A stretch of 25,301 nucleotides of DNA from a virus. The notes under the pieces are model-generated. The model saw only the letters and a list, made by a program, of their open reading frames with translations, did not search any database and was not told the DNA's origin. Each line of letters opens with the position of its first letter. Position 1 is the first letter of the stretch. The position numbers were made by a program, and so were the translations under genes. The stretch is from IMG/VR virus record IMGVR_UViG_3300027668_000090, positions 1-25,301 of that record; one strand, given 5' to 3'. Below are positions 7,485 through 24,345 of the stretch, piece after piece.

Positions 7485-8058
7485 AATCAGAAACTTTATA
7501 AAACATTACAAAAGCTTTCCTTCCTTCTTTCCAAGATACGTTAGGATATTTACTGTGAAAATAACTTGAGGGATAAGAAACTAATCTATTTTCTTCGTAA
7601 CCAACTACAGTGCTTAACCTCCATTTTTCTAAAGTATTTGCATCTACTTTTATCATTTTATCATACTCTTCATCTGTAATATCTTTAGGTATTTCTCTTC
7701 CATATATATCATGCTCCCATAATGCAGTACCATGAAGTTCTTCTTTTTCTCTTGGAGATAAATAAAGAACCAATGCTCTGTCAGGTTTTTCTCCATTAAT
7801 ATTTAAGTCAGAATGAATACGCCAAGAAACATCTAATTTATCTGTAGCAATTCTAAAAAAACTTAAAATATTTTTAATTTCCTTGCCTTCAATAATAGAT
7901 ATTTTTTGTGTTATATATTTATCAAACTCTTCATTTGATTCTTGAATATGGAAATCTTTATCTCCAGCTTTTATTTTTTTAAACTCATTTTCGTCTAAAT
8001 ATTTATTAGCTATTTCAAAAAGATTTTTTTGTACAAAATCATCTACAATATATATCAT
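7477..8058 (-). CDS. 2-oxoglutarate/Fe(II)-dependent dioxygenase
   Basis: The 193-residue protein has the double-stranded beta-helix signature of the prolyl-4-hydroxylase-like superfamily. The iron-binding HxD is H82-S-D84 (WRIHSDLN), followed by a strand ALVLYLSP. The distal iron histidine is H168 in SSYFHSKYP. The 2-oxoglutarate-binding arginine is R180 in EGRKAFVMFY. Spacing and the final aromatic strand fit the family. These enzymes hydroxylate proteins, nucleic acids or small molecules; the substrate cannot be read from the sequence. It overlaps the upstream gene by four bases and lies in the head/packaging operon, so expression is late. A virion protein or DNA as substrate is an inference. 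Similar stand-alone dioxygenases are common in phages of aquatic bacteria. Confidence 0.8.
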   Translation of the reverse strand: MIYIVDDFVQKNLFEIANKYLDENEFKKIKAGDKDFHIQESNEEFDKYITQKISIIEGKEIKNILSFFRIATDKLDVSWRIHSDLNINGEKPDRALVLYLSPREKEELHGTALWEHDIYGREIPKDITDEEYDKMIKVDANTLEKWRLSTVVGYEENRLVSYPSSYFHSKYPNVSWKEGRKAFVMFYKVSDYE

Positions 8059-8618
8059 AATGAAAAGGTTATATTGTTAGTAAACATCCTATACAACCGC
8101 TCTCCATCTACATTAAATTCATATTCACTTTCTGGTTGATAAGAAATCTCATCACCAACATTTAAACCCATACTTAAAAGTTGATTATTTATATACTTAA
8201 TAGTACCAAACAAGGGTTCTTCTGTAATAGATTTTTTAATAAAAGAATTTTTTGCAGGAGATGGTTTGATGAAACAATATTTATTGTACCCTCTCCATTC
8301 TCCATTTTGTTTGTATAAAAAAAACTGATCAGGATCTACAAAAAATAAATTATCTTTAAAATAACTTTTGCCGCTTTTTCTACGGCCCTGCATATCATTA
8401 TAAAACTTAAATACATTATGATGAACTAAAAGGGTGTCACCCTCTTTTACAGGCCCTGAATAATCTATAGGGGTTGATACTACAATTGCGTAACGATTTG
8501 ACGCACTATGGTCTTCTTCTGAAGTACTTATGATAAAATTAGTTTCACCGTAAGTTTTTGTGTTATCGTATCTCTTATTATTATAAGGTTTTACAATAAA
8601 CGAATAAGGAGATTTCAT
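8055..8618 (-). CDS. protein with two GroES-like domains, structural module
   Basis: The 187-residue protein looks like two successive copies of the co-chaperonin beta-barrel. Domain 1 (about residues 5-102) runs FIVKPYN, then a loop, AIVVSTP, VKEGDTLLVHHN and LFFVDPDQFFLY. Domain 2 (about 114-187) runs FIKPSP, EPLFGTI, VGDEISYQPESEYEF and NVDGERLYRMFTNNITF. The GD-plus-hydrophobic pattern, and the closing strand pair with a Gly turn followed by an Arg-rich strand and an Asn-Asn-Ile end, are what GroES proteins show. It is unlike the true GroES at 22.4 kb in length and lacks a clear mobile loop with three hydrophobic residues. It overlaps the dioxygenase start by four bases. The fold call is by eye. 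The function (tail or head chaperone, or structural subunit using the same fold) is unknown. Confidence 0.5.
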   Translation of the reverse strand: MKSPYSFIVKPYNNKRYDNTKTYGETNFIISTSEEDHSASNRYAIVVSTPIDYSGPVKEGDTLLVHHNVFKFYNDMQGRRKSGKSYFKDNLFFVDPDQFFLYKQNGEWRGYNKYCFIKPSPAKNSFIKKSITEEPLFGTIKYINNQLLSMGLNVGDEISYQPESEYEFNVDGERLYRMFTNNITFSL

Positions 8619-15782: not shown

Positions 15783-16436
15783 TTATTTTTTAGAAATGGT
15801 TATATTTTTAGATATTTTCTCTGCACTTCTACCAACAACATATCCACCAATGCCTATTTTTAACAACTCCCAAAATTCAAGTTCTAATTCAGGAATTGCT
15901 AACCCCAATAAAGGAGCTAAAAATTTTACATATATAACAATAAATCCAAAAGACATCATAAGAATAGGTCTCCAACTTCTTTGTATCCAATTTCCTTTTG
16001 CTTCCGTTATAATAATATCAGTTTGCATTTGCTGCAACTCTAATTGTTTTTGTATAATAATTTGTTTTATTATACTTTCAGCTTTTATTTTTTCTTCTTT
16101 AGAAGTAAATAATTTATCCAGGCCACCTAATAAATCTTTAAGTACGCTACCTCCGAACCAATCAAATATTTTTTTCATAATTATTTTTTTAGATTTTTTA
16201 CCAGAACATTTCCATCTTTTACGAGACAAGTTATTTGGTGTATTAGGATTATTTCTTTTGCCAATAGGTAATCCCATTTTTATTCCATAGCTTCTTGCGC
16301 AATATGAATCACCTTTAGATGTTCCAGGCTTTACCCTTGGGCCACCACCAGAAGCCTGACCTGCTTGACCATAACTAACTTTCTTTCCAGAAGAAGTTAC
16401 TTTAACTTTTGCTTTACCTTTCCTGGGTGTTGCCAT
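15783..16436 (-). CDS. basic small-protein domain fused to a holin-like membrane protein
   Basis: The 217-residue frame has two unlike halves. Residues 1-84 are very basic and contain GDSYCARSYGIK, NPNTPNNLSRKRWKCSGKK, a pattern I recall as a stand-alone small phage protein. From Met87 it reads MKKIFDWFGGSVLKDLLGGL, an amphipathic helix, a charged helix (TSKEEKIKAE), then RPILMMSFGFIVIYVKFLAP and LLKIGIGGYVVGRSAEKI as membrane segments. This is the layout of 3-TM gene-transfer-release-type holins, which permeabilise the inner membrane for the amidase. The junction is an A7 run (16184-16190). One base fewer would give KSKK, stop, TT, ATG: two genes with the same TAATTATG junction used elsewhere here. 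It may be a true fusion, a frameshift site or a sequencing error. Confidence 0.65.
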   Translation of the reverse strand: MATPRKGKAKVKVTSSGKKVSYGQAGQASGGGPRVKPGTSKGDSYCARSYGIKMGLPIGKRNNPNTPNNLSRKRWKCSGKKSKKIIMKKIFDWFGGSVLKDLLGGLDKLFTSKEEKIKAESIIKQIIIQKQLELQQMQTDIIITEAKGNWIQRSWRPILMMSFGFIVIYVKFLAPLLGLAIPELELEFWELLKIGIGGYVVGRSAEKISKNITISKK

Positions 16437-16561
16437 TATTTCTTTTTAGGAGTATGATTATATCCTTTTTTCTTTAATGCTAAATGATCCTTCATTGTTT
16501 TAGCAACTTTTTTAATTCCAGTTTTGCTATACATATTATGTATCTTAAATGCTTTTGCCAT
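16436..16561 (-). CDS. 41-residue basic protein
   Basis: Starts MAKAFKIHNMYSKTGIKKVA and ends HTPKKK. About one third of residues are Lys, with hardly any acidic residues. Its stop overlaps the next start by one base (TAATG), and its own start follows the stop of another tiny basic gene by three bases. No family is recognised with confidence. It belongs with the other small basic proteins and may bind DNA or be carried in the virion; that is inference. Confidence 0.6.
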   Translation of the reverse strand: MAKAFKIHNMYSKTGIKKVAKTMKDHLALKKKGYNHTPKKK

Positions 16562-16564
16562 AAT

Positions 16565-16684
16565 TTATTTTTTTACACAGTTATTAACGCGTTTAACTTT
16601 TCCGCTTGCGGTTTTTTTTCCGCTTGGAGATTTTTTAGTGCCTTTTGCAACATAACCTTTCCAACATTTTTGTTTATATGCCAT
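16565..16684 (-). CDS. 39-residue basic protein with two cysteines
   Basis: Starts MAYKQKCWKGYVAKGTKKSP and ends VNNCVKK. Two cysteines lie at residues 7 and 36, and Lys dominates. The start is joined to the amidase stop as TAATTATG, a junction seen repeatedly in this region, which supports it as a real translated gene. Function is unknown; DNA binding or virion packaging is a guess from charge. Confidence 0.6.
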   Translation of the reverse strand: MAYKQKCWKGYVAKGTKKSPSGKKTASGKVKRVNNCVKK

Positions 16685-16686
16685 AA

Positions 16687-17115
16687 TTATATATTTTTAT
16701 ATTCATCTGTAGCATCAAAACTTGGGCAAGCTTTTGCAGCAAAATCTCGATGACCATTTATCTTAGCCTCTGGATATATTTTTTTTAATAAACGAAGTAA
16801 TTCTAAAAGCGTTGCTATCTGTTCTGGTGTCCTTGTATCCTTTGCCGAATACTTTCCTTTATCATTTCTTTCTGACTCTACACCGCCTATGTAACACACT
16901 CCTATTGAACTGCAATTCATTCCTTTTGTGTGAGCGCCACACTTATTTATCATTCTACCTGTTTCAATTGATCCATCAATCAAAATTACAAAATGATATC
17001 CAATACCTTTCCAACCTCTTTTTTTATGCCATCGATCTATAACTTCAGCATTAATAGAGTCATCACCTTCTCTTGTAGCAGAGCAATGAACTATAATTTT
17101 TTTTACATCCTTCAT
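16687..17115 (-). CDS. N-acetylmuramoyl-L-alanine amidase (T7 lysozyme-like endolysin)
   Basis: A zinc amidase that cuts the bond between N-acetylmuramic acid and L-alanine in peptidoglycan for lysis. The 142-residue protein is the compact amidase_2 fold, close in length to T7 lysozyme. Expected residues are present: zinc ligands H10 (IIVHCSAT), H122 and C130 (NGHRDFAAKACPSFD), plus catalytic-site Y40 (GIGYHFVI) and K128. There is no signal peptide or SAR helix, so export depends on a holin. Candidates lie on both sides: the fused membrane protein downstream and the 58-residue membrane protein upstream. A strong terminator lies between the upstream gene and this start, so readthrough or a hidden promoter is needed. 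Confidence 0.92.
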   Translation of the reverse strand: MKDVKKIIVHCSATREGDDSINAEVIDRWHKKRGWKGIGYHFVILIDGSIETGRMINKCGAHTKGMNCSSIGVCYIGGVESERNDKGKYSAKDTRTPEQIATLLELLRLLKKIYPEAKINGHRDFAAKACPSFDATDEYKNI

Positions 17116-17130
17116 AATTATAAGTATAAA

Positions 17131-17155
17131 AAAAACACAGATGTTCTGTGTTTTT
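17131..17155 (-). terminator. intrinsic terminator upstream of the amidase
   Basis: A perfect 11-bp stem (AAAAACACAGA and TCTGTGTTTTT) with a TGT loop, followed on the minus strand by eight consecutive T including stem bases. Its T-flanks are present on both strands. It ends transcripts of the virion-protein and small membrane genes before the amidase start 16 bases further on. Confidence 0.8.
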
Positions 17156-17179
17156 AATTTTTAAATTAATATTTAGAAC

Positions 17180-17356
17180 TTATTTCTTTTTTTTATCTCT
17201 TCTTTCTTTATCTAATAAATACCATTTTTGAGCTGTGTATCCCACACTGATAATTAGAAGAATAACTTTTAAGACCATATCAAGATGTGAAAAAGATAAG
17301 GCCAACGAGGTTGCGTTTAATGCGTATAATTTTATATCTGACATGTTAAATTCCAT
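17180..17356 (-). CDS. small membrane protein, possible holin
   Basis: The preferred start is the ATG one base after the preceding stop (TAATATG), giving about 58 residues: MEFNMSDIKLYALNATSLAL, a moderately hydrophobic helix, then MVLKVILLIISVGYTAQKWY as a clear membrane helix. The tail LLDKERRDKKKK is highly basic. The frame extends upstream into the previous gene, but that longer start is less likely. One or two membrane passes with a basic cytoplasmic tail next to an endolysin fits a small holin. A spanin or anchoring role cannot be excluded. A terminator follows the stop. Confidence 0.65.
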   Translation of the reverse strand: MEFNMSDIKLYALNATSLALSFSHLDMVLKVILLIISVGYTAQKWYLLDKERRDKKKK

Positions 17357-17357
17357 A

Positions 17358-18125
17358 TTACCATATTGCCACACAAGCATTCCTTGCTTCAGCAGTTGTT
17401 GAGGTTAATAATAGTTGAGTGATCTGTATTGGTAAATAACTTCCAACTGGAAATTTTTCAAATGTAATAATATTTCCTGCTGTTGTTTTTACTCGTATAT
17501 CTACATAACTTCCAGCAGCTGTCATTGGAGACAAAGAACTACCAACGTATAATAAACATCCTTCTGCCGAATCTATTCTTGAAGAACCGCCAGGGCCTCC
17601 TAAATATATTTCATAGTCATCATTGAAAGTTTCACTTCCACCAAATAAATCAACTGAAAGAGTTAAATCTATTTCACTGTTTACAGCGGTAACTACAGCT
17701 GTAGTATTAGCAGTGTCGTTCCAAACTATATCTCCTACATTTACACCTTTGGTTATAAATGTTTCTCCAGATACAATTAAATGATTTGCTTTAACAATGG
17801 CATAAGTTTCATTTCCATTAGGAAATATATCTGCCGCTAAAGTTATTACTTGTCCTGTAATGGGTGCTATCGCAGCTGTTCCAGCTCCTGCAACTATTGA
17901 AATAACTAAATCTCCTACTACTACTGGTAGTGGAGGTGTTGCTAATAAAAAGTTTGCCGTTGAATCTTCTAACGCGAATGCAGTATCTACATCTGCTGTT
18001 CCGCTTGCAATTCCTGTAGATGTGCCTGAAATTATTGCTGAGTCTGGTGAAGGTATTGGTGTTACGTCACTGGCTATTATTTCTCTCGCCAGTCCTGTGT
18101 TTACTGTAATCTTTGGATATGCCAT
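17358..18125 (-). CDS. beta-rich virion structural protein
   Basis: A 255-residue protein low in Lys and rich in Ala, Gly, Thr, Ile and Val, in sharp contrast to the basic genes on both sides. It begins MAYPKITVNTGLAREIIASD, then PIPSPDSAIISGTS. The middle has repeated Gly-Asp turns (VVVGDLVISIVAG, NVGDIVWND) typical of small beta barrels. The C-terminus runs GSYVDIRVKTTAGNIITFEK to NACVAIW. No enzyme motif is seen. A head decoration, stopper or tail-tube type protein is plausible. The adjoining membrane protein starts one base after its stop. Confidence 0.6.
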   Translation of the reverse strand: MAYPKITVNTGLAREIIASDVTPIPSPDSAIISGTSTGIASGTADVDTAFALEDSTANFLLATPPLPVVVGDLVISIVAGAGTAAIAPITGQVITLAADIFPNGNETYAIVKANHLIVSGETFITKGVNVGDIVWNDTANTTAVVTAVNSEIDLTLSVDLFGGSETFNDDYEIYLGGPGGSSRIDSAEGCLLYVGSSLSPMTAAGSYVDIRVKTTAGNIITFEKFPVGSYLPIQITQLLLTSTTAEARNACVAIW

Positions 18126-18156
18126 TTTATTTTTTTTTGAGGGTTAAAAATCTCGT

Positions 18157-18345
18157 TTACTTACTATATGGAAACGCTCTATTAAGCGAATCTTTTCTTC
18201 CACTACAACCACAGTCTTTACCTGTTGCTTTAGCTACTCTATCTACTACTTGTTTTATTCCAGTAGCTTTTGTAAATTTCTCTACTGTATCTCCAAATCC
18301 TTTTGATCTTTCAATTCTTTGTACTTTTGTGAAAACATTTTTCAT
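18157..18345 (-). CDS. small protein with CGC motif
   Basis: A 62-residue basic protein: helical N-terminal part (FTKVQRIERSKGFGDTVEKF, VVDRVAKATG) and a compact end DCGCSGRKDSLNRAFPYSK. I recall the CGC, RK, LN, FPY ending from many Bacteroidota phages, where it accompanies virion genes, but I know no established function. The two cysteines could bind metal with the nearby side chains. Its start overlaps the stop of the upstream membrane-like small gene (ATGA). Confidence 0.7.
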   Translation of the reverse strand: MKNVFTKVQRIERSKGFGDTVEKFTKATGIKQVVDRVAKATGKDCGCSGRKDSLNRAFPYSK

Positions 18346-18482
18346 TTTTTACATTTACAAATTTGATTAGGACAACTATCTACTTTTATAATTAATTTTG
18401 AAACAATAGAATTATAGAAACAAGCAAACTTGCACCATATCTTTGTTACCCAATAACCTAATTTTATTAATAGTTTTCCCAT
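18342..18482 (-). CDS. 46-residue Cys-rich small protein
   Basis: Reads MGKLLIKLGYWVTKIWCKFA, then a middle with CFYNSIVSKLIIK, and ends CPNQICKCKK. It has a hydrophobic/basic N-terminal helix and five cysteines, three of them in the last 11 residues. The ATGA overlap with the next gene and the one-base spacing from the previous stop support translation. It could be membrane-associated or metal-binding. Function unknown. Confidence 0.55.
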   Translation of the reverse strand: MGKLLIKLGYWVTKIWCKFACFYNSIVSKLIIKVDSCPNQICKCKK

Positions 18483-18483
18483 T

Positions 18484-18618
18484 TTATTTTCTTAAAGGAT
18501 TGTACTTTGGATAAATATTTATTTGCTGAATAGAGTTTTTTAACTCTAACTCAACAACCTTTTTCTTATCCACTGCTGGTTTAATAATTTCTTTTTTAAT
18601 AATTTTCTTTTTAGCCAT
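18484..18618 (-). CDS. 44-residue basic protein
   Basis: Reads MAKKKIIKKEIIKPAVDKKK and ends IYPKYNPLRK. Lysine-rich, with a central helix VVELELKNSIQQIN. It ends one base before the next start, so the two are coupled. No family is recognised. An internal palindrome, TAGAGTT/AACTCTA at 18531-18548, lies within the coding sequence. Confidence 0.55.
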   Translation of the reverse strand: MAKKKIIKKEIIKPAVDKKKVVELELKNSIQQINIYPKYNPLRK

Positions 18619-18637
18619 TTGATTAAAATTTAATTAT

Positions 18638-18796
18638 TTATTTTTTAGATTTACCTTTTACTTTTTTAAGTTTAGGGTTTTTCTTTTTAGCTTTAGCGCT
18701 TGCGTTTCTTGATGCAGAAGCTAAGATAGCTCCAGCCGCTTTTTTAGAAACGCCAGATTTTTTTGCTATTTTTGCTTGTACTTTTTTAAAACTCAT
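18638..18796 (-). CDS. 52-residue basic protein, recurrent phage family
   Basis: Reads MSFKKVQAKIAKKSGVSKKA, then AGAILASASRNASAKAKKKN, PKLKKVKGKSKK. The pattern IAKK, SKKAAGAILA, ARxAS, KKKNPKLKKV is one I recall from small proteins scattered through Bacteroidota and aquatic phages, with no known role. The N-terminal two thirds could be a small helical domain; the tail is unstructured Lys. Both ends share sequence with neighbouring DNA: its first codons recur at 19003-19045 and its last 12 codons resemble the end of the 92-residue gene, which points to local duplication. Confidence 0.7.
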   Translation of the reverse strand: MSFKKVQAKIAKKSGVSKKAAGAILASASRNASAKAKKKNPKLKKVKGKSKK

Positions 18797-19045
18797 AATA
18801 TTATTTTAAATGATCATGCCTAACTATTTTAGCTGTGTGTCTATAAGACATATCTGAATCAGCTCCATAAGAGTGACTATACATTTTTTTAGACATTGAC
18901 TTAGACTCATCTCTACGAGATTTCATAGATTGAGATTTTTTTCCGTTTCTTTCACCTAATGACTCATTAAGTCTTGAGTTAAATCCTTGTTTTTTCATAA
19001 TTACTATTTTTGTTTATACTTTTTTAAAACTCATAATATTATTTT
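18765..19045 (-). repeat. 43-bp direct repeat carrying a duplicated gene start
   Basis: 18765-18807 and 19003-19045 match at 40 of 43 positions and are identical over 29. Copy one contains the start of the 52-residue gene (MSFKKVQAK). Copy two encodes MSFKKV and then a stop, so it is a dead duplicate. The 65-residue gene lies between the copies. The 3' ends of the genes ending at 18638 and 19039 are also alike (KLKK-KGKSKK). Confidence 0.75.
18801..18998 (-). CDS. 65-residue basic Ser/His-rich protein
   Basis: Reads MKKQGFNSRLNESLGERNGK, KSQSMKSRRDESKSMSKKMY and ends RHTAKIVRHDHLK. The opening QGFN-RL-ESLG-R and the RRDESK block recur in my memory of small phage proteins of unknown function. 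It is disordered by eye, highly charged and lacks cysteine. It starts after TAATTATG and is followed four bases after its stop by the next start. It may be virion cargo or DNA-binding. Confidence 0.65.
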   Translation of the reverse strand: MKKQGFNSRLNESLGERNGKKSQSMKSRRDESKSMSKKMYSHSYGADSDMSYRHTAKIVRHDHLK

Positions 19046-19317
19046 TTAGACTTACCTTTTGATTTTTTAAGTTTCTTAGAAACAGTAGCATCCGCCATCC
19101 AGCCTCTTTTTCCATACTCCTCTATTCTTGGTGAAGATCCTAATGGTAAGTCTTTCATGCTTGGCTTTTTTGTTTTTCGCATATGACTTTTATCGTAATA
19201 TTGATTATCATAATACATATCTCCCTTTTCTGAAGGTGAAGATTTGTATTTGCTGTTTTTTTGAGCCTTTTTTTGACAAGCTATTAAAGCCTTACCTGTT
19301 AATCCTTTACACGACAT
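19039..19317 (-). CDS. 92-residue basic protein with MSCKGL N-terminus
   Basis: Reads MSCKGLTGKALIACQKKAQK, a Tyr/Asp-rich centre (GDMYYDNQYYDKSHM), PLGSSPRIEEYGKRGWMAD, and a Lys-rich end. The first 18 residues match the start of the next gene upstream, the 272-residue histone-like protein, at most positions, including both cysteines (C3 and C14). The shared head on two otherwise different proteins suggests a modular tag, perhaps for metal binding, disulphide formation or packaging. A candidate promoter lies 30 bases upstream. Confidence 0.65.
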   Translation of the reverse strand: MSCKGLTGKALIACQKKAQKNSKYKSSPSEKGDMYYDNQYYDKSHMRKTKKPSMKDLPLGSSPRIEEYGKRGWMADATVSKKLKKSKGKSKK

Positions 19318-19346
19318 TGTTGTTTATTTTTTGAATTAATATATTA

Positions 19347-19354
19347 CAAATATA
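19347..19354 (-). promoter_or_regulatory. candidate -7 box TATATTTG inside the basic-protein cassette
   Basis: Minus-strand TATATTTG, 30 bases before the 92-residue gene, in one of the few gaps longer than 50 bases in the cassette. A second near match (AATATTTG) lies immediately upstream. No -33 TTTG is at standard spacing. Confidence 0.45.
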
Positions 19355-19375
19355 CAAATATTTATAAATAGATTT

Positions 19376-20194
19376 TTAGTTCCATTTTGCATTAAATCGA
19401 TTGCCTGTTCTTTTTCTGGAAAGTTTTTTGTTTACTTTCTTTTCTAACTTAGCTTTTTTCTGAGCAGGTGTTTTCTTTTTAAAGATTTTTTTTACTTTTT
19501 TGCCAGCGTCTTTTAATTTTTCTTTTGTAGTACGTTCCAGTTTTTTTCTTATAGCAGCTTTCTTGGCTGCTAAAGAAGTAGCGGTAGCTTGCTTGTCTTT
19601 ATTCTTTTTATTAGCAAGAGCAGTTTTTCTTCTCTGCGCTACACTAACTTTTGTTTTTTTAGTTAACGTACTTTTACCTGTGCCTCTTACATAAGGTTTT
19701 TTAGTCTCAGTTTTTTTCTTAGCCTCAGTTTTTTTCTTAGTCTCAGTTTCTTTCTTAGCCTTAGTTTTTTTCTTAGCCTCAGTTTTTTTCTTTTTTTCTA
19801 CTAAAGTAACCTTACTTGCAAGTTCTTTTTTATTAAAAACAGCGGTAGACACATATTCAGTCTTTCTCTTTTTTCTATTCTTTTTTAATAAAGCTTTTTT
19901 TCTTGGAGTTACTTTTACAGTAGTTTCTACTTTACCTTTAGGATTAACTGTACCAATAAGATCTATTGTTGCATTGTTGTTTTCAAGCTTCTTTTTCTTT
20001 TCTTTTAATTTTAAAGCAACCGCAGCATTTGTTTTTTTATTTGTAAAACTTCCTAAAGAAGCATCTTTAGATGAAGATTTATTCACTAATAAGGTGTCCT
20101 TAGCAGTCATTTTAGGATGTCTTAGTTTTAGCTTTGCATATGCTTTTGCTTTACATGCCTTTAAAGCTTTGCCTTTTAAACCTTTACAACTCAT
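19376..20194 (-). CDS. histone H1-like lysine-rich protein
   Basis: A 272-residue protein dominated by Lys, Ala and Thr. The N-terminus MSCKGLKGKALKACKAKAYA is shared with the 92-residue protein. A short less basic stretch (TIDLIGTVNPKGKVETTVKV, about 77-96) could be a small folded element. Residues 135-164 are five six-residue repeats of the KKKTEA type. The end runs KLEKKVNKKLSRKRTGNRF. Composition resembles the C-terminal tails of histone H1 and bacterial Hc1-like proteins, which compact DNA. Here it may condense genome DNA in the particle or coat intracellular DNA; that is inferred from charge. Its start is joined to the previous stop as TAACTATG. Confidence 0.7.
   Translation of the reverse strand: MSCKGLKGKALKACKAKAYAKLKLRHPKMTAKDTLLVNKSSSKDASLGSFTNKKTNAAVALKLKEKKKKLENNNATIDLIGTVNPKGKVETTVKVTPRKKALLKKNRKKRKTEYVSTAVFNKKELASKVTLVEKKKKTEAKKKTKAKKETETKKKTEAKKKTETKKPYVRGTGKSTLTKKTKVSVAQRRKTALANKKNKDKQATATSLAAKKAAIRKKLERTTKEKLKDAGKKVKKIFKKKTPAQKKAKLEKKVNKKLSRKRTGNRFNAKWN
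19703..19792 (-). repeat. five 18-bp in-frame repeats (KKKTEA type)
   Basis: Five tandem 18-base units encode KKKTEA, KKKTKA, KKETET, KKKTEA, KKKTET. The copies are almost identical in DNA, so the number of units is likely to vary between related phages. Confidence 0.8.
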
Positions 20195-20196
20195 AG

Positions 20197-20475
20197 TTAT
20201 TTATTTTTTTTTCTACCTAAAATTGATTTATCTCCGATTTTTCTTCGGTTCTTTTGTTCTTTTTTAGCTAAACGATTAATTCTACTAATATATTTCTTTT
20301 GCTTAAAAGTTAACTTAACATCTTTAACCTTATCAGTTCTAATTTTATTATAGTCTTTTTTACCTAATTCTTCTTTTAGGACTTTAACCATCTCGACTCT
20401 ACTCGTAGAATCTCTTTTTATTTTTTTTCTTGTATTTAATGAGTCCCTGACTCTTTTAGTAATTGGATCTGGCAT
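20197..20475 (-). CDS. 92-residue basic protein, MPDP group
   Basis: Reads MPDPITKRVRDSLNTRKKIK, a helical centre (RVEMVKVLKEELGKKDYNKI), and KQKKYISRINRLAKKEQKNR near the end. Rich in Lys and Arg, with no cysteine. It shares the MPDPxxK start with the 101-residue protein two genes upstream. Likely mostly helical and DNA- or RNA-binding by charge. No named family. Confidence 0.65.
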   Translation of the reverse strand: MPDPITKRVRDSLNTRKKIKRDSTSRVEMVKVLKEELGKKDYNKIRTDKVKDVKLTFKQKKYISRINRLAKKEQKNRRKIGDKSILGRKKNK

Positions 20476-20478
20476 AGT

Positions 20479-20652
20479 TTAATACATTTTTTTACCCATA
20501 GCCTTTTCATTGCCATAGTTTGGATTATTTTTTACTTTACCGCTCATTGTTTTTGCAAACTCTGTAGCTTGAGCCTTTCCTACTGCGTTGTAAGGAAATT
20601 GTTTTTTTTTCATTTTACCTGTGTCTCCACATTTATAACTTACTGTTGGCAT
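20479..20652 (-). CDS. 57-residue basic protein of a recurrent phage family
   Basis: Reads MPTVSYKCGDTGKMKKKQFP, YNAVGKAQATEFAKTMSGKV, KNNPNYGNEKAMGKKMY. I recall the MP-VSYKC...GKMKKKxFPYNAxGKA pattern from many small phage proteins with no known function, which supports this as a real gene. One cysteine at residue 8. The start follows TAGTT, and the next gene starts at TAAACTATG just after its stop. Confidence 0.7.
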   Translation of the reverse strand: MPTVSYKCGDTGKMKKKQFPYNAVGKAQATEFAKTMSGKVKNNPNYGNEKAMGKKMY

Positions 20653-20662
20653 AACTATTTAT

Positions 20663-20968
20663 TTAAAATTGAATTTTATTTTCTTTTCTTAACTGAGCAA
20701 CAGTCTTTACCTTCTTTTTTTTGTCTCTCAAGTCTGCTCGTTTCTTTAAAGCAAGTTGTCGTTTGTTTAGAGGTTTAGAGGATAATTTAGCTTTTTTGGC
20801 CTTAGTATAATTATATTTAACTGCTTTTTTTCCTGGGCCAGTAGTTTTTACTTTTTTCTTTTTAGGAGCAATCCCAGTTCTATTTTGTGCGCCATAGCCT
20901 GCTTTACCTGCTTTGGTTTTCTTTTCTGCTTTTCTTTTTTTGTTATTCTTTTTTACTGGATCTGGCAT
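20663..20968 (-). CDS. 101-residue very basic protein, MPDP group
   Basis: Reads MPDPVKKNNKKRKAEKKTKA, GKAGYGAQNRTGIAPKKKKV, then repeated Lys clusters and ends LRKENKIQF. About 40 percent of residues are Lys or Arg, with few acidic ones. Low-complexity, probably disordered until bound to nucleic acid. It shares its first residues with the 92-residue MPDP protein. Function unknown; DNA condensation is the most economical guess. Confidence 0.65.
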   Translation of the reverse strand: MPDPVKKNNKKRKAEKKTKAGKAGYGAQNRTGIAPKKKKVKTTGPGKKAVKYNYTKAKKAKLSSKPLNKRQLALKKRADLRDKKKKVKTVAQLRKENKIQF

Positions 20969-21002
20969 GATTATATATATTTAATGTTTAAATCAAAACG
21001 AC

Positions 21003-21233
21003 CTATGCGTTTCTTTTTTTTATGGTTTTGCATCCTGTTTTTACACCTGACGAATTATATACAGATCTACGACCTCTTCCGCAACTGTTTCTTGCTTCTC
21101 TTTTAGCTTCGTAAGCTTCTTGCTCACTTCTTCTTGCTGCTTGAGGCCATCCTCTATCTCTTCTTCTTTCAGCTTGTCTTTTTTTTCTTTCCGACTTTTT
21201 TAGTAGTCTACTTCTTTTATCTTTAACTGCCAT
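21003..21233 (-). CDS. 76-residue Arg-rich protein
   Basis: Reads MAVKDKRSRLLKKSERKKRQ, AERRRDRGWPQAARRSEQEA, then NSCGRGRRSVYNSSGVKTGC. Unlike its neighbours it uses Arg as much as Lys, and it has two cysteines in a Gly/Arg-rich end. The first 50 residues should form one charged helix. The start overlaps the previous stop region as TAGTTATG. No family is recognised. Confidence 0.65.
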   Translation of the reverse strand: MAVKDKRSRLLKKSERKKRQAERRRDRGWPQAARRSEQEAYEAKREARNSCGRGRRSVYNSSGVKTGCKTIKKRNA

Positions 21234-21235
21234 AA

Positions 21236-21445
21236 CTATCTTTCTATAGGAGCTGGACTTGTAACATCAAGATCACTTAATTTTCCAAAACCTGATCTAC
21301 TTGTTTTATTTGTTTTTTTCATTTTATCGTAAGCTGTTAACTGTTTAGGTGTTCTGTTAACCATTTTGTACTGACAACTTCTTTCTCCTTTTTTATTTGT
21401 TTTACAAACTCGAGTTCTTACTTTTTTTCTTTTTTTATCTGCCAT
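21236..21445 (-). CDS. 69-residue basic protein with Cys pair
   Basis: Reads MADKKRKKVRTRVCKTNKKG, ERSCQYKMVNRTPKQLTAYD, and ends LDVTSPAPIER. Cysteines at 14 and 24 flank a Lys-rich turn, possibly a small hairpin. The C-terminal third is less basic than in its neighbours. Two bases separate its stop from the next start. Function unknown. Confidence 0.65.
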   Translation of the reverse strand: MADKKRKKVRTRVCKTNKKGERSCQYKMVNRTPKQLTAYDKMKKTNKTSRSGFGKLSDLDVTSPAPIER

Positions 21446-21454
21446 AATTAATTG

Positions 21455-21925
21455 TTATTTTTTTTTCTTTCTTCTATAGTTAATAACCCTTTTAGCTTTT
21501 TTAGCCTCATTGTAAGTATTGACAACTGTTTTAGCAGCTCCTTTATAGTCAAGGTTTCTTATGTTTTTTGCAAGCTTAATAGCTCCTCCAACTATTTTAC
21601 CAGTTTTAGAATTTGCTAATTTTTTACCTGTAGCAACTGCTTTTCTTATTCTTCTTTTTGAGCGAGTTGTATTGGTTAAAGTATTAACAAGTTTACGAGT
21701 AGCTAACTTTTTAGCTTTCTTGGAATTACCTTTTTTAGTAGCTCTACTAATTCTTTTTGTAAGTTTTGCATTTTTTCTTGCAACTCTTTTGCTTGTTTTA
21801 GGTAAAACTGTTTTTTTAGCAACAGGTTTTTTAGGTGTTGGTTTTTTCTTTTTTACTGGGGTAGTCATCTTTCTTGCTGGTGGTCTACCTCTTTTAGAAC
21901 CATAAGTCCCTTTTCCTGCTGGCAT
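21455..21925 (-). CDS. histone-like protein with AT-hook
   Basis: A 156-residue protein with 56 Lys or Arg residues by my count and only two acidic residues. Residues 10-19 read SKRGRPPARK, a match to the AT-hook core (GRP flanked by basic residues) that enters the minor groove of AT-rich DNA. PK-repeats follow (KKKKPTPKKPVAKK), then two basic helical blocks (TKRISRATKKGNSKKAKKLA, RSKRRIRKAVATGKKLANS). A less charged patch IVGGAIKLAKNIRNLDYKGA, about 117-136, may be a folded helix pair. First gene of the cassette behind its own promoter box, so probably the best expressed. AT-rich phage DNA is the obvious ligand. Confidence 0.7.
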   Translation of the reverse strand: MPAGKGTYGSKRGRPPARKMTTPVKKKKPTPKKPVAKKTVLPKTSKRVARKNAKLTKRISRATKKGNSKKAKKLATRKLVNTLTNTTRSKRRIRKAVATGKKLANSKTGKIVGGAIKLAKNIRNLDYKGAAKTVVNTYNEAKKAKRVINYRRKKKK

Positions 21926-21959
21926 AATTTATATGTTTTAATTAATTATTTTATCTTTA

Positions 21960-21967
21960 CAAATATA
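21960..21967 (-). promoter_or_regulatory. candidate -7 box TATATTTG heading the basic-protein cassette
   Basis: The TATATTTG match on the minus strand lies 34 bases before the AT-hook gene. The 55-base gap also serves the divergent regulator gene; on the plus strand TATCTTTA (a near match) lies just before it. The regulator could therefore bind here and control both directions. Confidence 0.5.
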
Positions 21968-21980
21968 AGAATTTATTTTA

Positions 21981-22445
21981 ATGAAATTTAAAGCAGTATA
22001 TCCAAGAAAAAATACCACTCGTAAATTACCTGACCACGACTTTCTAAAGTACTGGAGAGTAATAAGGTATTGGGTTAAGGTAAAATATGAGTTAGGTACA
22101 CCAGAATTAGAAATGCTTCTATTTTTGTATAGTGAACAGATATTTAATAAAAGTCAATTCAAAGAGTATGAGCAAATTATGTCCTGGGATATATGCCGTT
22201 TCCGTAAACTACTAAATGAAGAGTGGATTCATGTATGGAGAAAAAAAAATGGTAATGAAACTACCCTATATGAATTAACATACAAAGCTAAACGAGTAAT
22301 AAACACCATATATAAAAAATTAAACGGAGAAGAATTAGCAGAAACTGCTATATCTAATCCGCTTTTTAGAAACGATGCTTCTTATATGGATAAAGTTTAT
22401 CGTAATATGGTTAAGGAAATGAATAAAGAAATTAAAGAACTATAA
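21981..22445 (+). CDS. winged-helix (MarR-like) DNA-binding regulator
   Basis: The only plus-strand gene in the window. The 154-residue protein has a helical N-terminal part (FLKYWRVIRYWVKVKYELG), then TPELEMLLFLYSEQIFNKSQ, IMSWDICRFRKLLNEEWIHV as a helix-turn-helix. A charged wing follows (WRKKNGNETTLYELT), then KAKRVINTIYKKLNGEELAE. That is the MarR-type order: helix pair, recognition helix, beta wing, dimerisation helix. It shares a 55-base divergent region with the basic-protein cassette. At its end it overlaps the groES stop by 14 bases on the opposite strand, so transcription of the two can interfere. I infer a regulator of one of these neighbours; target unknown. Confidence 0.7.
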   Translation: MKFKAVYPRKNTTRKLPDHDFLKYWRVIRYWVKVKYELGTPELEMLLFLYSEQIFNKSQFKEYEQIMSWDICRFRKLLNEEWIHVWRKKNGNETTLYELTYKAKRVINTIYKKLNGEELAETAISNPLFRNDASYMDKVYRNMVKEMNKEIKEL

Positions 22446-22689
22446 CAACATCTCTTTCCTGAATAATTGTATAAGTATTATCACCTATCATCATTGTATG
22501 ACCAGCATTTTTATCATAATAAATTAAATCTTCCTTCTTTATTACAGTTACATCTGTCCCTGGTTTAACTACAGAGCCTTTTCTGTATCTAAAATCATCT
22601 ACATCTGACTGAGAAAGTAATAATCCTGAAGAAGTCTTTACCTCTTCTGTTATTGTTTTTATAATAATATATTTTCCGACTGGTTTCAT
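22432..22689 (-). CDS. groES: GroES-like co-chaperonin
   Basis: An 85-residue lid partner for the adjacent GroEL. Barrel strands: KYIIIKTITEE, RKGSVVKPGTDVTVI, EDLIYYDKNAG, and the closing pair IGDNTYTIIQERDVVIVL. The mobile loop at residues 17-31 (VKTSSGLLLSQSDV) carries the hydrophobic triplet LLL, equivalent to IVL in E. coli GroES, that docks on the GroEL apical domain. It is somewhat shorter and more diverged than host GroES. Only two bases separate groEL from this start, but the order is groEL first then groES, the reverse of the usual bacterial groES-groEL order. It overlaps the regulator gene tail-to-tail. Confidence 0.88.
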   Translation of the reverse strand: MKPVGKYIIIKTITEEVKTSSGLLLSQSDVDDFRYRKGSVVKPGTDVTVIKKEDLIYYDKNAGHTMMIGDNTYTIIQERDVVIVL

Positions 22690-22691
22690 AA

Positions 22692-24317
22692 CTATTCTTC
22701 TATTTTTCTTGCATGAGTAACAATTGCATTAGTACTAAGTATTGTTGTTGCAACACTTACCGAGTTTAATAAAGCAAGACGAGTTACTTTTAAGGGATCA
22801 ATAACACCCATTTCAAACATATCTCCGTATTCCTCATTTTTAACATCATACCCATGATCTTTTGGTAGACTATGTGATTTTACTAAAACAGTACTTGCAC
22901 CTCTATCATCAATACCAGCATTTTCTAATATTTGATAAAAAGGTACACACATTGCGTGTCCTAAAATAACATCTGCAACATCTTCGTTATCCCAATCATC
23001 TTCAGGCTTTCCTTTAAAGCGTTGCATCTCCATGTGTTCACCAATATCAAACAAAACAGAGCCACCACCCTTTACAATACCCTCTTCTAAAGCACTACGA
23101 ACTGCACAAACAGCGTCTTCTACCCTATCATATTTCTCTTTTTGCTCTACATCAGAGTTACCTCCAACATAAATAGCTCCAATAGATCCAGATAAACTTG
23201 CAATACGCTCGTTAATAAACTCTCTGTCAGATACAATCTCTGTATTCTCTTGCTGCTCTTTTAATTCTTTAATCCTATTCTCTATATCTCCAGTAAGCTG
23301 GTTGTTTTTAATAATAACAGTTTGATTTTTACCAGAGATCACTTTATCAGCTTGACCTAAATCCTCCATTGTTATTAAATTCAAGTTATCCCCAGTCTTT
23401 TCAGAGAAATATTTTGCTCCAACCGACAACGCAATGTCCTGCATTAACTCATGTTGCTTATAGCCAAAGTTTGGCGGTATAATATTACAAAGCTTTAATC
23501 CATTTCTCACTACGTTTGCCGCCAGAGTATTCACAACATTGGGCGAGCAAGCTCCAATGATGAGAAGTTTTTTGTTTTGTTGTATAATTGGTTTTAAAAT
23601 TGTTTCGATTTGAAGAATGTTACTTATCTCCTGGTCACAAACTAAAACTAAAGTGTCCTCCAGGACAGCCTCGTCATTTTTTTGATTAGTAATAAACATT
23701 TGAGAAGTATAACCCCTATCAATCTTAATACCGTTTGTAACAGTTGCATACGTCTCATGGTTTTGAGAACTCTCAACAGTTACTATTCCATTAACACCTA
23801 CTTTTTCGTAAGCTTCAGAAATAATCTGACCTAATTCAGAATCATTATTAGAAGAAATAGTAGCAACATCTTTTAACATATCAGAAGTTACCTTACGACT
23901 ACGCTCTTTTAATTTATCAATAACCTCTTCTGTAGTTTTTTTTATGTTCTTAACAACCTCAGTAACATTATGCTCTGAAGTTAAAAACTTTTCACCAGCT
24001 TTTACTAAAGCTTCAGTCAAAACAATTGCAGTAGTAGTTCCATCACCAGCAGAATTAGCAGTTCTACGAGCCGCATCCTTCATCATAGTAATAGCCAAGT
24101 TCTCTACAGGATCTATTAACGATATAGACTCTGCAACAGTAACCCCATCTTTTGTAATTGTAATTCCTTGTGTATGATTTGAAGACTCTATAAGAACAGT
24201 CTTTCCGCGTGGGCCTAAAGTACTCTTTACAGCTTTAGATATTTTTGATATCCCACTAATTAATCTCTCTCTTCCTTCTTGATCGAATAAAAGATCCTTT
24301 GGTATATAATTGCTCAT
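22692..24317 (-). CDS. groEL: phage GroEL chaperonin
   Basis: A double-ring ATP-dependent foldase of 541 residues, close to the family's length. ATP-site motifs are intact: TLGPRGKTVLI (33-43), GDGTTTAIVL (91-100), SSNND (155-159), and VEDAVCAVRSALEEG (399-413) with D401 at the position of the catalytic Asp398 of E. coli. The apical segment DRGYTSQMFI keeps the tyrosine of GYLSPYF but changes later residues, and FGYKQHELMQDIA replaces the usual FGDRRK. The C-terminus stops at HARKIEE with no Gly-Gly-Met tail. These changes suit a phage-specific partner or client, likely a capsid or fibre protein. It is transcribed from its own promoter and coupled to groES. Confidence 0.95.
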   Translation of the reverse strand: MSNYIPKDLLFDQEGRERLISGISKISKAVKSTLGPRGKTVLIESSNHTQGITITKDGVTVAESISLIDPVENLAITMMKDAARRTANSAGDGTTTAIVLTEALVKAGEKFLTSEHNVTEVVKNIKKTTEEVIDKLKERSRKVTSDMLKDVATISSNNDSELGQIISEAYEKVGVNGIVTVESSQNHETYATVTNGIKIDRGYTSQMFITNQKNDEAVLEDTLVLVCDQEISNILQIETILKPIIQQNKKLLIIGACSPNVVNTLAANVVRNGLKLCNIIPPNFGYKQHELMQDIALSVGAKYFSEKTGDNLNLITMEDLGQADKVISGKNQTVIIKNNQLTGDIENRIKELKEQQENTEIVSDREFINERIASLSGSIGAIYVGGNSDVEQKEKYDRVEDAVCAVRSALEEGIVKGGGSVLFDIGEHMEMQRFKGKPEDDWDNEDVADVILGHAMCVPFYQILENAGIDDRGASTVLVKSHSLPKDHGYDVKNEEYGDMFEMGVIDPLKVTRLALLNSVSVATTILSTNAIVTHARKIEE

Positions 24318-24337
24318 TGTATTTGATTTGATTTATG

Positions 24338-24345
24338 CAAATATA
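24338..24345 (-). promoter_or_regulatory. groEL promoter
   Basis: Minus-strand TATATTTG lies 20 bases before the groEL start. A TTG lies 19 bases further upstream, the spacing expected between the Bacteroidota -33 and -7 boxes. This is the only candidate promoter in the window with both boxes visible. The untranslated leader would be short. Confidence 0.6.

Follow-up and report, generated by a model that had tools for sequence, protein, structure and literature searches.

The internal proteins IPI to IPIII of bacteriophage T4 form a small, basic and variable set of late proteins. The DUF5754 family (PF19058) is conserved in polinton-like viruses, nucleocytoplasmic large DNA viruses and bacteriophages (PMC12220804), and among the cyanophages, 45 virion proteins have been detected by mass spectrometry (MS) in S-SCSM1 (PMC9602691) and 14 have been reported in S-CREM1 (PMC9964418). 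Here, we describe a cassette of small basic proteins in the IMG/VR virus record IMGVR_UViG_3300027668_000090 (positions 1 to 25,301, referred to below as the window), a 25.3-kb linear fragment of a podovirus. Sixteen small basic open reading frames (ORFs) lie head to tail on its minus strand within positions 15783-21925. On balance, we favor the interpretation that they are a late and modular set of head-associated proteins that are packaged in the virion and probably touch the DNA or the inner capsid face. We propose such a head-packed set because several of the same modules adjoin or are fused to capsid machinery elsewhere and are parts of proteins detected in purified virions.

Charge and coding reality of the cassette

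Every ORF listed in the initial annotation was present on the minus strand with the length given there, and the richness in Lys and Arg that it described was confirmed. The 16 basic units have 20-38% K+R, isoelectric points of 9.6-12 and a net charge per residue of 0.14-0.37 (median, 0.25), with no overlap with the range of -0.10 to +0.07 found in the other 20 window proteins (Mann-Whitney, p = 2e-7 versus all others and p = 1e-4 versus other small proteins). One copy of the whole set carries +346 charges and, arithmetically, about 350 copies of every member would neutralize 60 kb of DNA. The description as one nose-to-tail cassette holds for the tight tiling, with gaps between neighbors of -4 to 64 nt, but the genes fall into two blocks (18157-21925, 13 genes; 16185-16684, 3 genes) split by an acidic 255-residue protein, a 66-residue protein and an amidase. 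When the window proteins were scanned directly against Pfam and PHROG, only the holin and the amidase were matched, and neither a histone nor an HU domain was detected.

In this region, the strand is rich in A (AT skew to -0.40), which favors lysine codons, as would be expected if the cassette were a compositional artefact made of chance ORFs. The tight tiling, the hundreds of homologues of two members and ratios of nonsynonymous to synonymous substitution rates (dN/dS) well below 1 make this explanation hardly credible. The ratios were calculated against relatives for the 84-residue protein (N84 below), the 41-residue protein and seven others; the most basic members, of 272, 156, 101, 92, 92, 76 and 44 residues, have few or no homologues and lie outside this set. 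The ratios were 0.05-0.15 for N84, 0.02-0.10 for the 41-residue protein (pairs with unsaturated dS) and 0.13-0.38 for the seven others; the portal of this phage, for comparison, gave 0.22. Since dN/dS of 0.02-0.4 excludes chance ORFs, the conserved members are shown to be real genes under purifying selection and an artefact is refuted for them; the 44-residue ORF is unproven as a gene.

Relatives of the cassette proteins in other viruses

N84 (SYCARSYG..LSRKRWKC; 16185-16436) is read by the assembly as fused to the following holin, and with this N84-holin query, at least 588 IMG/VR stretches were found to encode a relative; among the best 80 of these loci, about 60 match the N84 part, with 75-90% identity. 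In cultured phages, N84 is found in Roseobacter phage CRP-7, Vibrio phages and cyanophage S-TIM5; in CRP-7 and Vibrio phage 1.036.O, it is encoded by a gene of its own. Bacterial and archaeal genomes hold only 10 loci among 84,980, mostly on short contigs of metagenome-assembled genomes, so N84 is a viral gene. The 52-residue protein of the AGAILA family (18638-18796) has relatives in 269 IMG/VR contig stretches. The 39-residue protein (CWKGY..GTKK..VNNCV; 16565-16684) scores 24.7 bits against the profile of the CW module, built from cyanophage and haloarchaeal virus proteins, compared with 12.5 bits for the best of 2000 shuffles; it follows the pattern C-W-x(2)-[YH]...G-x-K...N-C-V, with the caveats of a 9-residue insertion and a low-complexity bias. 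Sequence searches of the PDB gave no match for CW or N84. For J, a family of the sister cassettes of related viruses, they gave only tetratricopeptide and RNase matches, judged to be due to chance.

The initial annotation had likened several of the proteins to families recurring in Bacteroidota phages. They do recur, but they are not confined there: N84, CW and AGAILA are also present in phages of other hosts, and the CW module extends to haloarchaeal viruses. The conserved cassette genes are modular and essentially confined to viruses.

Outside the lineage of the window, a head gene (portal, terminase, scaffold or major head protein, according to PHROGs) was present at 31 of 52 N84 loci, with N84 at most five genes away in 30. 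N84 lies on average 1.71 genes away, compared with 3.41 for genes picked at random from those fragments (0 of 2000 draws, which is not an exact probability because the N84 loci are partly related). Additionally, AGAILA genes lie about seven genes past the major head gene in approximately 20 contigs, beside DUF6321 and J proteins. Homologues occur singly in part, a pattern that the initial annotation would have counted against a packaged set if the contexts were unrelated. However, since these contexts are head modules, the singly occurring homologues favor virion packaging rather than refute it. They also bear on a role in lysis. The direct neighbors of the cassette are the amidase and the holin, and its proteins could be lysis helpers, for example cationic membrane-active peptides acting beside holin and endolysin; this seems very unlikely, as the same families adjoin portal, scaffold and capsid genes in other phages and only the 46-residue member is notably hydrophobic.

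Fusions to head-maturation proteases and detection in virions

The modules of the cassette and of its sister cassettes are also found within larger proteins. In haloarchaeal virus HSTV-1, gp13 (L097, 3293-4714) is an XkdF-type head-maturation protease (Peptidase_S78_2, 8.7e-22) whose protease domain is immediately followed by CW, and gp55 of Aeromonas phage PAc (L090, 4770-5693) is a protease of the same type (S78_2, 1.5e-20) with J before the protease domain. Both CW and J are carried by a cytidylyltransferase, Melnitz gp18, and CW/J modules are likewise found in that of Sf-CH8.

In cyanophages, the N84 core profile matched S-TIM5 gp65 (7e-15), S-SCSM1_29 (4e-7), the RB11-B structural protein (6e-7) and S-CREM2 gp137 (1e-4), and the CW profile matched RB11-B (1e-11), S-SCSM1_29 (1e-6) and S-CREM2 gp160 (2e-4). 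The C-terminal N84-type core corresponds to Pfam DUF6321 in RB11-B (6e-22) and S-SCSM1_29 (3e-22). A YPSAYANM-type module was found in the RB11-B structural protein (6e-4) and S-SCSM1_29 (7e-5) with a widened H profile; the strict H profile and the GELKKW (G) profile alone matched no cyanophage protein, and a GELKKW-like stretch in the RB11-B and S-SCSM1_29 proteins was recognized by eye only. The RB11-B structural protein (427 residues; L099, 3470-4753) has relatives in 513 phage records. Proteins of this type are strings of small two-cysteine modules that are separate genes elsewhere, and they are mostly labeled hypothetical in the listed records.

Two such proteins of S-CREM2, ORF137 (4 unique peptides) and ORF160 (7), were identified by MS in CsCl-purified virions (Table 3 of PMC10665884). 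ORF137 has a DUF6321 C-terminus, and ORF160 has CW and YPSAYANM-type modules. S-SCSM1_29 is labeled "virion protein" in its record, which presumably stands for MS detection because the label is used on other structural genes there. No virion mass spectrometry was found by keyword in the cobavirus paper.

A head association is supported by homology, and the virion packaging proposed in the initial annotation gains indirect but independent support from modules in MS-detected virion proteins, protease fusions and proximity to head genes. We infer that the stand-alone small proteins of this phage would themselves be packaged. Alternatively, they could be late products that stay out of the virion and target nucleic acid, ribosomes or host machinery inside the cell; late expression of both would then account for a loose genomic link to head genes. 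Their high charge would suit general nucleic-acid binding, the cassette sits between the chaperonin and regulator genes and the lysis/tail genes, outside the head module, and the peptide detections concern multi-module forms, not stand-alone ones. Nevertheless, CW and J are fused to head-maturation proteases, multi-module forms are seen in virions, and N84 is nearer to head genes than small genes picked at random from its own contigs, and we regard action in the cell as unlikely, though deserving some weight.

Modularity at one genomic position

In relatives of the window, one slot flanked by GroES and the lysis/tail genes contains about 4-13 small basic genes, which come from a shared pool and vary in order. 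These counts come from the viral-contig relatives L004-L008, L011, L018, L021, L048, L060, L062, L080 and MW202828, and the automatic count takes in a few neighbors where GroES was not tiled. For the 44-residue protein, no homologue was found.

Such strong variation in gene content at a fixed site would also be expected of packaged and injected counter-defense or takeover factors like the T4 internal proteins, in which the charge would aid packaging with the DNA and the turnover would reflect host conflict. Consistent with injection, cytidylyltransferases, which carry CW and J in Melnitz and Sf-CH8, have been reported in cyanophage virions (PMC9602691; S-CREM2 ORF154, PMC10665884). On the other hand, N84 and the 41-residue protein are among the slowest-evolving genes compared (dN/dS, 0.02-0.15), and N84, unlike host-specific effectors, is common to phages of very different hosts. 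Furthermore, no common N-terminal capsid-targeting sequence of the T4 type, which a prohead protease cuts, was seen by eye among the sixteen N-termini. We consequently consider injected factors quite unlikely as the general explanation.

Under the head-packed interpretation, the cassette proteins would be made late, be incorporated into the head as it forms and remain part of the virion after packaging. Their Lys/Arg-rich surfaces would probably contact the inner face of the capsid or the DNA packed within, and the varying gene content would represent an exchangeable source of counter-charge or of factors for injection.

Predicted folds and weight of the evidence

The cassette proteins may bind DNA under this interpretation, and both this and the neutralizing or condensing role suggested in the initial annotation are hinted at by their charge, by the KRGRPPAR stretch of the 156-residue protein and by a weakly HU-like predicted hairpin in the 52-residue protein. 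The AGAILA family yielded a confident helical model (predicted local distance difference test [pLDDT], 82), with HU in 18 of 19 Foldseek rows; no sequence-profile match to HU and no Pfam Bac_DNA_binding or histone match was obtained for it. For N84, one good model of five was obtained (pLDDT, 83.5; predicted template modeling score, 0.52).

Several observations weigh against virion packaging or DNA contact. The structural hints are faint, as the HU scores of the 52-residue model are weak (E of 2.4 or worse; Z of 4.7 or less) and a search with the N84 model found no solved fold at E below 1. The neighbors of the cassette in this phage are lysis/tail genes rather than head genes, and it is mostly missing from the cultured elemo phages, which have hardly any of the basic genes. 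For seven members, few homologues or none could be detected. The virion MS evidence concerns homologous cyanophage proteins, not this phage or a close cassette-bearing relative. In S-CREM2, MS support is low (4-7 peptides, 4-13% coverage), and its list also holds probable non-structural proteins; moreover, the modules there are embedded in longer chains, and the peptides may fall outside them.

A broader and more doubtful proposal is that tailed viruses of bacteria and archaea share previously unrecognized small basic modules, often with two cysteines, for building or filling the head, acting together as a viral counterpart of protamines or histones on the packaged DNA. Equally tentative is the idea that such modules are deployed as rows of tiny genes, as domains of head-maturation proteases or as beads on one virion protein. 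The late regions of marine phage genomes are crowded with small basic proteins that have no known role and carry no annotation beyond "hypothetical", and one module set recurring in head-maturation proteases and virion proteins gives separate families a joint testable hypothesis. Cultured viruses (CRP-7, Vibrio 1.036.O, S-SCSM1, S-CREM2 and HSTV-1) offer entry points, and a direct test is possible in cultured phages, which makes the finding worth pursuing. If packaging is true, it would bear on how the heads of double-stranded DNA phages neutralize or organize the genome, a role usually attributed for the most part to small cations.

Individual genes and genomic context

The first cassette gene encodes a 156-residue basic protein of histone-H1-like composition (21455-21925) with an AT-hook-like N-terminal GKGTYG..KRGRPPAR. 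Its N-terminal 16-21 residues match stand-alone MPxGKGTYGxxxGRP proteins in L027, L029, L033 and L035, and it has a weak match to phrog_4151, "DNA binding protein" (E = 0.0075); as a query in the viral-contig search it found no relative, and L125 has a similar Lys-rich frame at the place of this gene. It is followed by two basic two-Cys proteins, one of 69 residues (21236-21445), with a 62% identical homologue at the same place in L062 (dN/dS, 0.37), and one of 76 residues (21003-21233), and by a basic protein of 101 residues (20663-20968). The latter two are taken from the ORF listing, and their similarities to L125 proteins of 78 and 105 residues, respectively, are not significant. The 57-residue protein (VSYKC..FPYNA; 20479-20652) is 82% identical in L062 and 55% identical in L048. 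A 92-residue basic protein (20197-20475) has a syntenic homologue in L125 (37% identity; E = 1e-4), and the Smith-Waterman score of the pair beats all 500 shuffles.

The Lys-rich 272-residue protein (19376-20194; N-terminus MSCKGLKGKALKAC) and the second basic 92-residue protein (19039-19317; N-terminus MSCKGLTGKALIAC), both taken from the ORF listing, have in common the N-terminus MSCKGL(T/K)GKALxAC, which suggests that the two genes arose by duplication; the MSCTGKTG and MNCAGKKG proteins of L018 and L021 start similarly. The 65-residue QGFNSRLNESLG protein (18801-18998) has 10 related loci with 52-78% identity (dN/dS, 0.13-0.17 for pairs with unsaturated dS). Beyond the AGAILA gene lie the Lys-rich 44-residue ORF (18484-18618; ORF listing), the partly hydrophobic, Cys-rich CPNxxCxCK protein of 46 residues (18342-18482; 12 related loci; dN/dS, 0.23-0.25) and the 62-residue DCGC..FPY protein (18157-18345; 18 related loci), with relatives also in MW202828 and, more distantly, in a Microcystis phage. 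The amidase between the blocks is an N-acetylmuramoyl-L-alanine amidase, or endolysin (16687-17115; Pfam Amidase_2, 2.8e-14; phrog_822, 5e-55), and the second block includes the 41-residue HNMYSKTG protein (16436-16561; 8 related loci, 69-100% identity).

The fusion of an 84-residue domain to a holin, as initially annotated, depends on one extra A. The A-run at the junction, at about 16180, is one base longer in the window than in the closest relative, L004, in which an 84-residue gene with its own stop ends two bases before the ATG of a 131-residue holin. The apparent fusion within 15783-16436 would thus come from an error in the assembly or from a frameshift that arose recently. From its own ATG, the holin has 131 residues (15783-16178; Pfam GTA_holin_3TM, 1.1e-7; phrog_3427, 1e-26), and it is a separate gene in L004 and L005.

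The virus infects marine Bacteroidota bacteria. Its terminase is 71% identical to that of "Podoviridae sp. ctfjg026" from Manatee Spring, and Flavobacterium elemo phages (46%) and Cellulophaga phages are more distant kin. On the minus strand, the gene order runs from GroEL and GroES through the cassette, the lysis/tail genes, terminase and portal to a virion structural protein. The chaperonins GroEL and GroES are encoded at 22432-24317, and a second GroES-like protein of 187 residues (phrog_13932; 8055-8618) adjoins a minor-coat-like gene; both features are kept in relatives. A divergent regulator-like gene on the plus strand (154 residues; 21981-22445; phrog_12817, 6.6e-5; phrog_17028, 1e-10) borders the cassette and is a candidate controller of the late operon. 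Its family is present in 12 fragments of the lineage; in the examined ones, the gene is located between GroES and the slot of the cassette. The motif TATATTTG[CT]A occurs on the minus strand at 24336-24345, 21958-21967 and 19345-19354, in the gaps before GroEL, the 156-residue gene and a 92-residue gene. It resembles the Bacteroidota -7 element, TAnnTTTG; counts of Bacteroidota promoter patterns over the window were not above chance.

Comparison with known systems

Like the T4 internal proteins, the cassette is a set of small and basic proteins whose late expression may be read from gene order. The T4 proteins are known to be packaged, whereas packaging is proposed here for the cassette, and no sequence relation between IPI-III and the cassette was seen. 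The 52-residue family resembles bacterial HU in its predicted helical hairpin, with weak scores, but its model differs from HU in being without beta arms. DUF5754 is related to the window only through the J family of sister cassettes (E = 0.006, below the Pfam cut-off), J being absent from the window itself. DUF6321 (PF19846) C-termini and N84 have a common core, [FY]CAR..G....DPxS...RxWxC, but N84 has its own N-terminal half and does not reach the Pfam model (no match at E 0.1). The closest likeness in module content is to the phrog_727/phrog_3477 protein of cyanophages RB11-B, S-B43 and S-SCSM1, which combines a CW module with an N84-like core in its DUF6321 C-terminus and, in further stretches, also resembles the GELKKW and YPSAYANM families of the sister cassettes. 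In these cyanophages, however, it is a single chain of 427-517 residues encoded between tail-fiber and terminase genes, whereas in the window separate tiny genes are found.

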